Below are positions 19,673 through 21,405 of a stretch of 44,245 nucleotides of DNA, one piece after another. The stretch covers positions 1 through 44,245 of the forward strand of contig NZ_JAFLQW010000426.1 of the NCBI RefSeq assembly GCF_017313335.1, given 5' to 3'. Within the stretch, counting starts at the first letter, position 1; each line of letters opens with the position of its first letter. The stretch is from Phormidium pseudopriestleyi FRX01. Its GTDB lineage: Bacteria > Cyanobacteriota > Cyanobacteriia > Cyanobacteriales > Laspinemataceae. The notes beneath the pieces are model-generated. The model saw only the letters and a program-made list of their open reading frames with translations, was not told the DNA's origin and made no database searches. The position numbers were made by a program, and so were the translations under genes.

Positions 19673-20038
19673 ACATAACGGTTATGGGAAAACCCCGATT
19701 GAGTTTCTGCTTTGGAGCCAGTCTAGTAGACTATCCAACCCCAAGAGACTGCAAGGGTTCATTTCTGTATTTTATCAAACAACCGGGTATTTGCATAGCT
19801 GCTTTCGTAGCCGATTGGGTTTTTTCTATTCAAAAGTCCGCCGATCGCCAGAAACCGCGTCAATGAATCTCAACGGTTTGCTTAAAAACTCTCCATTGTT
19901 CGGGAGTGTTTCGGCATGGTGTTCCCAGGGGAACCCGAAATCCTAGTCCGGGGGTTAGGCTATCATCGACTCCCATAGTCCATTCCATTCCACAATCGGG
20001 AATAACAAGCTTGGGGTTTGTGCGGATAAGGCATAGAG
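19673..20038. other. Spacer between tRNA-Arg and the candidate RNA
   Basis: 366 bases. It should contain the tRNA-Arg promoter reading left. A short GTTCCC...GGGAAC hairpin lies at 19920-19934. No ORF with family features. Confidence 0.4.
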
Positions 20039-20044
20039 TAAGAT
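20017..20044 (+). promoter_or_regulatory. Possible promoter of the candidate structured RNA
   Basis: TTTGTG (20017-20022) and TAAGAT (20039-20044), spacer 16. The start would fall near 20051, exactly where the first stem of the candidate RNA begins (20052). Weak by itself. Confidence 0.3.
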
Positions 20045-20049
20045 AAGGG

Positions 20050-20685
20050 TTAGTCAGGGCGTTGAATTACGTCGCCAGGGAAGTAAACTACCCAACGCTG
20101 ACTGAGTACAGTACAGCGCGAGGCTCTTAAAGCCTAATGTTTACCAGACTCAGGCGTGTTGATTTACTACGTTAGAGGCAAGTGTTCAAGCTCTTACCTA
20201 CAGATGCGTAGCTAGTCTGTAGCTACTAAAACTTAAAGATTAAACAGGCTTATTATTGGGTTAAACCAGTGTCTTTAAGGTAGTACCGACCTCTAACAAA
20301 GGCGCAAGCTAACTTCACCCCAGAAATGGTCCGGCTCAATAGAGCAAAACCGTTATGCGGACTTCGGTTGTCAGATTTCAGTTCGTAACTGCCGATCGCG
20401 AAAGTAGATTGCAATACTACAAGGGATTAAGCAACTCCAAGGCGGTAATGGTCTGATTAATTCATGGAGAACAATCTTTATGCAGCGTAAACCTAGCCCC
20501 TCCTTGACTCTCACCGCTAATTGTAGTACCAGTATAGCGTCCGTCTCAATGAGGGAAGAAAGATGAGCAAGACTTGCCGAGTTGCGGTTAACTGCGTGAG
20601 TCAGACTAAACTAAAGCCAAAGTGTGGTTCAACTTAATCTTGAAACCAAGCAGGCCGACAAACGAAACTCTCGCTTTTCGCCATT
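20050..20685 (+). ncRNA. Candidate large structured RNA (unassigned, ~0.6 kb)
   Basis: No frame over 60 codons exists across about 870 bases, yet the stretch is dense in complementary segments. Stems seen: AGTCAG+CGTTG (20052-20064) with CAACG+CTGACT (20093-20103); AGGCT/AGCCT (20121-20135); GTTAGAGG (20171-20178) with CCTCTAAC (20290-20297) enclosing CTACAG/CTGTAG (20198-20222) and CTTAAAGA/TCTTTAAG (20232-20279); GTCCG/CGGAC (20329-20362) around GCTC-AATA-GAGC; AACCG (20348-20352) with CGGTT (20365-20369), which would make a pseudoknot with the previous stem; TGGTTCA/TGAAACCA (20625-20648); CGAAA/TTTCG (20663-20680). It lacks the RNase P core, tmRNA acceptor and tag, and does not look like 6S or SRP RNA. 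It could instead be a long leader of the gene at 20737. Strand is inferred from the promoter and next gene. Confidence 0.45.
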
Positions 20686-20736
20686 TCCATTGAACCGACA
20701 GCACCCACAGGCCACGAGGACTCAATTGGCAGCGTC

Positions 20737-21405
20737 ATGTTTATTCTGAAACGGCAGGATGTTGAAATAACGGGTATTCAGCACCCCAAAACGGGTCAAC
20801 AAATACCGATTTTGAACTATCAAGGTCAGACCTTTCGCTTAATTAACGTGTTCAGCGCTCAACAGGCGGATGAGGCAAGGGCCTTTTGGAGGGACCTAAC
20901 GGATAACCGTGGGAAAGCTTGCGTACTGCTTGAAGAGACTGATCGATACAGTGTTTGGGGCAAAATCCGTCTGGACCAGCTAACAGAGGATGCTCATGGA
21001 GGGGTAGCAGCAGCGCCCCTGTACACCCAAGCCTGTCTTTTAATGTTACAAGCGGTTTTCTTTGACATAGAAGACCTGCTGGGCAATCGGCAAGCGAGTT
21101 CATTTGAAAAGGACATTGCTGAGACCTTTAAAAAATGGCGCTTCCCTCAAGCGGAATCACCGGATGCGGTCAACCAGTTGCTCAATATGGACCCCTTGGG
21201 CGGCGCGCAAGTCCCGTCTTGGCAAGAGCATCATTTGAATACCTTGTTGCAAGAACTCTATCGCTTGGGCAAAGCCTATTTTGGGAATACCAGCTTTGTA
21301 GAACGAGCCTTAGATATCTTGGAAGATATGCCCTCTGGGGAACGCAAGCAGTTTAGAGATTGGCTTGGACAATCTCCCCTCGGTGAGATGTGGTCCCTAT
21401 CTTGA
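20737..21405 (+). CDS. Conserved cyanobacterial protein of unknown function (222 aa)
   Basis: Soluble, no signal peptide or membrane segment. Residues 1-80 look like a beta-rich domain (QIPILNYQGQTFRLINVFSAQQADEA, then CVLLEETDRYSVWGKIRLDQL). Residues 90-222 are mainly helical (CLLMLQAVFFDIEDLLG, FEKDIAETFKKWRFP, LNTLLQELYRLGKAYFG, ERALDILEDMPSGERKQFRDWLG). I think similar proteins are widespread in cyanobacteria but I cannot name a function. The gene is the first after the candidate structured RNA, and the next gene on the same strand starts 135 bases later. The ATG has only a distant GAGGA, so translation may depend on the leader. Confidence 0.75.
   Translation: MFILKRQDVEITGIQHPKTGQQIPILNYQGQTFRLINVFSAQQADEARAFWRDLTDNRGKACVLLEETDRYSVWGKIRLDQLTEDAHGGVAAAPLYTQACLLMLQAVFFDIEDLLGNRQASSFEKDIAETFKKWRFPQAESPDAVNQLLNMDPLGGAQVPSWQEHHLNTLLQELYRLGKAYFGNTSFVERALDILEDMPSGERKQFRDWLGQSPLGEMWSLS

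Follow-up and report, generated by a model that had tools for sequence, protein, structure and literature searches.

IscB is regarded as the ancestor of Cas9, and HEARO elements reportedly integrate before ATGA or GTGA, as their 2009 description is said to state. The HEARO RNA is the omega-RNA of IscB (PMC9755519), and the target-adjacent motif (TAM) of DtIsrB is given as NTGA (PMC9581776). Omega-RNAs that stand alone and function with IscB have already been reported (cited in PMC9581776), and from Limnospira maxima a HEARO of 343 nt has been recorded (PMC12286853); such longer HEARO constructs may already include part of the 3' domain described below. In the literature searched on IscB/IS605 together with start codons, Shine-Dalgarno sequences or non-autonomous elements, no report of such siting at start codons was found.

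Then, how does a long non-coding region of a cyanobacterial genome compare with these systems? The window is a stretch of 44,245 nt from Phormidium pseudopriestleyi FRX01 (contig NZ_JAFLQW010000426.1), in which a first-pass annotation had proposed, at 20050-20685, either a large new structured RNA or a giant cis-regulatory leader. Our reading is that the region holds a stand-alone, non-autonomous IscB/HEARO (IS200/IS605-like) transposon, to which, mechanism steps included, we give a probability of about 0.85. A precise insertion of 480 bp lies 5' of ATGA in the leader of a DUF7469 gene, and it has an omega-RNA fold, no iscB and a second, intron-related domain. The idea of a new structured RNA was thus correct in part. 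The region is structured, both of its halves covary, and the 3' half has no match in Rfam, while the 5' half does have one, to the known HEARO class. It was also correctly stated that no frame exceeds 60 codons from about 19866 to 20737, where the longest is 53 aa.

The whole non-coding element occupies 20083..20562 on the plus strand, with limits given by empty sites in relatives and by repeated copies with identical ends. In all five of the closest relatives found (Laspinema and Oscillatoria, L027-L031, chosen from 80 loci kept), the bases matching 20082 and 20563 adjoin directly, and therefore the limits are 20083 and 20562 instead of the broader ones first drawn. Compared with these empty sites, the insertion is precise, target duplication is absent and ATGA stands on the 3' side, that is, the element sits beside a fixed tetranucleotide in the manner of non-autonomous IS200/IS605-type elements. 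This ATGA, at 20563..20566 (plus strand), is the putative target-adjacent motif, in agreement with the NTGA of DtIsrB, and it follows all nine right ends examined in the family of the window element. The right end, 20468..20562 (plus strand), was recognised from right-end matches in the own genome, and the last 12 nt of the element (20551-20562), GAGGGAAGAAAG, are purine-rich and Shine-Dalgarno-like. The empty sites also speak against a giant cis-regulatory leader conserved before orthologues of one gene, since five of five near relatives have this gene without the element before it and related copies stand before unrelated genes.

The host flank directly 5' of the element, 20063..20082 (plus strand), is the presumed guide: it adjoins the omega-RNA scaffold and is kept at the empty sites of the five relatives. 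Its length of 16-20 nt is taken by analogy with IscB/IsrB (PMC9581776). In the own genome, the guide-proximal 14-mer (20069-20082) is found once in exact form, at its own position; matches with one or two mismatches are about as frequent as for a reversed control. The 11-bp stem reported at 20052-20064/20093-20103 straddles the left end (20082|20083) and is fortuitous, because its 5' arm is host flank, present also at empty sites. On the other side, a putative 24-codon frame opens at the ATGA (20563..20637, plus strand) and has an identical 24-aa translation in the five relatives, where the non-coding DNA around it is conserved equally well. The downstream host gene, 20737..21405 (plus strand), lies outside the element and belongs to the DUF7469/Npun_F0813 family (Pfam PF24276, NCBIfam NF045621). 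Its host leader (20001-20082 plus 20563-20740), about 240 nt, is nearly invariant in the five Laspinema/Oscillatoria relatives, and the DNA immediately upstream is without conservation in them; the leader may hold a regulatory element of its own, or the 24-codon peptide.

The 5' half of the element, 20083..20318 (plus strand), is an omega-RNA scaffold (HEARO, RF02033). A cmscan of the whole window gave 94.3 bits against a curated cut-off of 83, over the full length of the model (1-211 of 211). Among 13 related sequences, two-sided changes were found in 17 of 38 pairs, and 94.3% of the cells of the alignment are paired, compared with 30-46% in slid controls. Within the order, 64 of 120 genomes have HEARO. 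RNase P, tmRNA, 6S and SRP were sought as well, and besides HEARO and three tRNAs the window has no Rfam match.

Of the pairs listed in the first-pass annotation, GTTAGAGG/CCTCTAAC (20171-20178 with 20290-20297) exists and corresponds to a covarying helix of the omega-RNA (helix 4). The abundance of complementary words is not exceptional: words of 5-8 nt do not exceed those of 200 first-order Markov sequences (177 complementary 5-mers against a mean of 192; five 8-mers against 2.8, a count reached by 38 of the 200), and folding of the 480-nt element gives a z-score of -1.6. Consequently, the listed pairs, being at chance level, are no evidence in themselves, and the case has to be made by comparison. 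The suggested pseudoknot has both arms fully paired in two of nine aligned copies (AACCG/CGGTT in four, GTCCG/CGGAC in five), and where a weak promoter had been supposed, a scan of 19680-20760 yielded no plus-strand site and one minus-strand site, with 1.4 expected.

A HEARO RNA may be followed directly by an HNH-endonuclease (IscB) gene; directly 3' of the window's omega-RNA, in 20319-20700, neither an ORF nor an IscB trace was found; the copy is called stand-alone for this reason. A six-frame comparison of this interval with two full IscB proteins, which considered a decayed iscB, gave chance-level matches only (best E 0.82).

The own genome has 19 HEARO matches, 10 of them above the cut-off. 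Among these 19 loci, several of which stop at contig ends, a long IscB reading frame lies beside L001 only, whose omega-RNA is of another subtype than that of the window; L009 and L011 have short IscB-like pieces at chance-level E-values. The element itself has 17 matches in the own genome, many of them partial or cut by contig ends, with 86-94% identity for the longer ones, and a full-length copy with 87% identity is present in a relative (G005). The IscB gene is seen as two pieces at contig ends, perhaps from different copies: an N-terminal part on contig C556 (NF040563, 368 bits), truncated where the contig stops, and, on C445, 47 residues that match the C-terminus (66%). Behind the IscB stop on C445 comes a right end that agrees in its last 24 nt with the stand-alone copy C188 of the window's family, and then ATGA. 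Gene-bearing and stand-alone elements have these ends in common, which suggests that they may be mobilised in common. For the Y1 transposase, one good gene (116.7 bits) and one fragment (23.8 bits) were found in the own genome, and the good locus shares no match with the element beyond 12 nt.

A second family of stand-alone omega-RNAs was also observed in the own genome (L011-L014, L016), in which three copies share about 500 bp and HEARO scores are 59-80 bits, below the cut-off. Three of its copies end close together, but their right flanks vary, with ATGA in L013, ATGA 5 nt away in L014 and none in L012; the family therefore counts against a universal ATGA rule, and it was left out of the count of right ends given below. 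One further copy of the window's family, C146, has an internal deletion, and another, L139 (C120), consists of a 70-bp right end, adjoined by sequence that resembles the start of another transposase-like frame.

Such copies raise the question whether the window element is itself a dead remnant, an inactive internal-deletion derivative of an IscB transposon with leftover sequence as its 3' half. The internally deleted C146, C120 with its right end only, and the eroded omega-RNAs found elsewhere (L281, L283, L286) all fit that view. However, compensatory two-sided changes occur in both halves, the window copy retains the whole HEARO model, 20319-20700 is free of any IscB trace, and the 3' half is related to introns and not to iscB. 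We consider a dead remnant improbable.

The 3' half carries a second RNA domain, 20313..20467 (plus strand), homologous to a group II intron domain, as set out below. Matches of about 70-80% to 20319-20480 are found in omega-RNA loci of other genera, and in a first alignment of 21 sequences two-sided compensatory change was seen in 18 of 30 pairs, with 94.6% of cells paired compared with 28-48% when slid. Based on this alignment, a model, R1, was built, which scores 109.8 bits in the window and served to align 49 loci whose match was known beforehand. Two-sided change then appears in 21 of 30 pairs and 94.2% of cells are paired, compared with 34-41% slid, for an alignment that, fitted to R1, leans towards the model, as the 21-sequence alignment does not. 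At E up to 10, the only Rfam match in 20300-20580 is a 13-bit CRISPR repeat on the minus strand. With no Rfam match and with covariation across several genera, it seems fair to speak of a new RNA for the 3' half.

The distribution of R1 is related to that of iscB. Among 73 omega-RNA loci from eight genomes, 28 have an IscB match, counted as any tblastn hit within the fetched stretch (that of L203 lies in a second element, and L232 stops at a contig end), and none of these has R1; of the other 45, 22 have it. The Fisher P of 2.4e-6 is optimistic, because loci within one genome are related and not independent. The remaining 23 of the 45 loci lack both, and R1 is wholly absent from three of the eight genomes (G028, G055, G105). 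The 3' domain thus appears to occupy the place of iscB. At E up to 0.001 and with intron-type matches counted, 25 of the 120 genomes of the order have R1; at E up to 1e-8 it was found in 23 of 292 genomes of the phylum, all 23 in the same order; HEARO lies directly upstream of the best R1 locus in 13 of the 25. One genome (G063) has 21 matches to the 3' domain, many of them partial and at contig starts. In three copies of the own genome (L136, L137 and L017, on C188, C649 and C558), the same insert of about 24 nt separates omega-RNA and 3' domain, as would a small dispersed repeat.

Some of the best R1 loci are of another kind. Five of them (L291, L293, L295, L296, L297; R1 42-60 bits) lack HEARO and have, 56-97 nt downstream of R1, a domain V of the group II type, and L292 resembles them, with no domain V found there by Rfam. 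In L290 and L294, domain V is upstream of R1, and the best R1 loci L281, L283, L286 and L287 have a match to neither HEARO nor domain V. The six intron-type sequences, aligned alone and without reference to R1, show the same architecture. In the introns, the R1-like domain lies between a long 5' part and domain V. A model built from these six sequences, R2, matches 31 of 31 R1-bearing loci tried, 30 of them at E up to 4e-9 and L290 weakly (E 0.003); the window is included with 43.7 bits (20325-20468). Of 70 controls, made up of 50 HEARO loci lacking R1, six IscB loci and 14 relatives, R2 matches not one. By comparison of sequences and models in both directions, the 3' domain is thus reciprocally homologous to the domain that precedes domain V in group II introns of cyanobacteria.

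Given this homology, could the 3' domain be part of a degenerate group II intron that entered the omega-RNA element, and not part of the RNA? In L290 (1384-1651), a group II domain V-VI does, by eye, sit inside a stand-alone element, between the 5' side of the omega-RNA remainder and R1, which shows that omega-RNA elements and group II introns do meet. However, the window has no domain V match (RF00029), nor has 20300-20580 at E up to 10, and the same single domain, which covaries, follows the HEARO model directly at the best R1 locus of the 13 genomes mentioned above. An intron remnant is accordingly, in our view, the least probable of the alternatives considered here.

The 3' domain persists in elements with an eroded omega-RNA. 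Orthologous insertions before the same gene were found in three species of the genus (L286, L287 and, in the own genome, L305 on C271), and the old element ends at the ATGA that starts that gene. In all three, its omega-RNA part escapes detection with Rfam, and in L286 some of that part is deleted. Pairwise identity among L286, L287 and C271 is 93-96% for the 3' domain, 84-85% for the omega-RNA part and 92-94% for the gene start; this is the single site where the 3' domain was seen to change more slowly. By eye, L283 retains no more of the omega-RNA before R1 than its first stem. In L281 (1430-1735, genome G116), almost no omega-RNA is left between the upstream gene and R1; the 3' domain and the right end are kept, and the element ends at the ATGA starting a petA-like frame, the frame that L258, from a genus-mate, also shows. 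An element thus stands directly before a petA-like start codon in two members of one genus.

These sites, together with the frequent position of copies in leaders described next, would fit an element, chiefly its 3' domain, that now acts in cis within the host gene's leader. At the old insertion it is the 3' domain that is the better preserved, and before petA it is what has been retained. However, the difference in rate concerns that single site, the host genes are unrelated, and the absence of the window insertion from all near relatives implies that no long selection has acted there. A cis role is therefore unlikely for the window copy, about as unlikely as the dead remnant.

In order to see where copies land, right ends were collected. 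From 73 loci of eight other genomes, right ends were proposed for 47 based on repeat boundaries; six unclear ones (L242, L246, L224, L204, L206, L248) were dropped, and the remaining 41 were joined by nine from the family of the window element and by two later finds (C445, G002_C443), which gives 52. Each boundary was adjusted to an NTGA close by, a step that biases the set towards the motif; the flank is CTGA in one of the 52 (L203). A co-directional gene start lies within 300 nt downstream of 35 of the 52 copies, whereas 658 of 1835 non-genic [AG]TGA sites (36%; window and 80 loci) are in co-directional leaders (P 4e-6). Such an excess would be expected if the guide, lying outside the element, has to be transcribed from a host promoter.

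Start codons are also frequent at the right ends. A frame of at least 80 codons opens exactly at the flank ATG/GTG in 21 of the 52, compared with 172 (9.4%) start-like sites among the 1835 controls; an antisense gene call overlaps one of these frames (C458), and for three others (L260, L234, L226) the joined flanks contain no in-frame stop over 33 codons upstream. When an in-frame upstream stop is required, 14 of 45 sites with upstream flank remain, against the 9.4% background (P about 4e-5). The looser count, set against sites in co-directional leaders (26% start-like), gives P 2e-5, for a comparison of unlike criteria. The copies behind these statistics are not independent, and the rates differ among genomes (6/8 in G055, 4/6 in G067, 1/9 in G085, 0/6 in G119 and 0/5 in G100), and the excess at start codons is best called suggestive. 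Of 19 frames compared with NCBIfam over their first 160 residues, 13 matched a family, including rpoB, ndhA (NuoH), ndhB (NuoN), dnaN, eda and dcm, and six were unmatched. For dnaN, ndhA, ndhB and eda, the alignment begins within the first five residues of protein and profile, and rpoB, dnaN, ndhA and ndhB are among the genes with a copy at the exact ATGA/GTGA start codon. The window copy opens only its 24-codon frame, and right ends in G085 and G100 are T-rich instead of Shine-Dalgarno-like.

For the stand-alone transposon, the following course of events may be envisaged. A transposase supplied in trans would have moved the element, and transcription from an upstream host promoter would cover the flank, as guide, and with it omega-RNA and 3' domain. 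An IscB from another locus would take up this RNA and cut element-free copies of the site, recognised by the guide sequence and ATGA, after which recombination could copy the element back, as in the model of retention described for TnpB, in which the empty allele is cut and re-copied (PMC11870625). The 3' domain would most likely be a protein-binding or stabilising part of the trans-acting RNA, which is the weakest step of the scheme.

A bolder version, which we offer tentatively and regard as possible but doubtful, is that stand-alone cyanobacterial omega-RNAs include a long-lived chimeric class, composed of a guide RNA and a captured intron domain that is kept longest, with start codons (ATGA/GTGA) as target-adjacent motif. 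The intron-derived domain might be kept, for example, by binding an intron-encoded reverse transcriptase/maturase or another factor of stability or spread. Some families would bring a ribosome-binding stretch at their right end and could thereby settle before essential genes, with the guide transcribed from host promoters.

Compared with known systems, the window element agrees with the reported stand-alone omega-RNAs that function with IscB in being an omega-RNA without an adjacent effector gene (cited in PMC9581776). With HEARO, it shares the full-length model match, the conserved fold, the ATGA at the 3' side and the multiple copies in the genome; it differs in that no iscB lies behind the RNA and a second domain outside the Rfam model is there instead. 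Similar to non-autonomous IS200/IS605 elements, it shows precise insertion, no target duplication, a one-sided fixed tetranucleotide and ends common with a gene-bearing element, but it carries an omega-RNA and an intron-like domain. The three-way architecture and the loop sequences of the 3' domain are those of group II introns, whereas domain V or any other intron hallmark was not found in the window element, which is not an intron. What would be new, therefore, is the conserved group II intron-like 3' domain, the stand-alone omega-RNA being of an already known kind. Since IscB is the presumed ancestor of Cas9, omega-RNAs apart from the protein bear on the separation of guide and effector in CRISPR, and one with a conserved extra domain of its own offers a handle on trans-acting guides. 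Insertion directly before start codons, such as those of rpoB and dnaN, suggests how a transposon may be transcribed by its host and yet do little harm. If omega-RNAs and group II introns have a domain in common, two classes of RNA-based mobile elements would be linked in an unexpected way.
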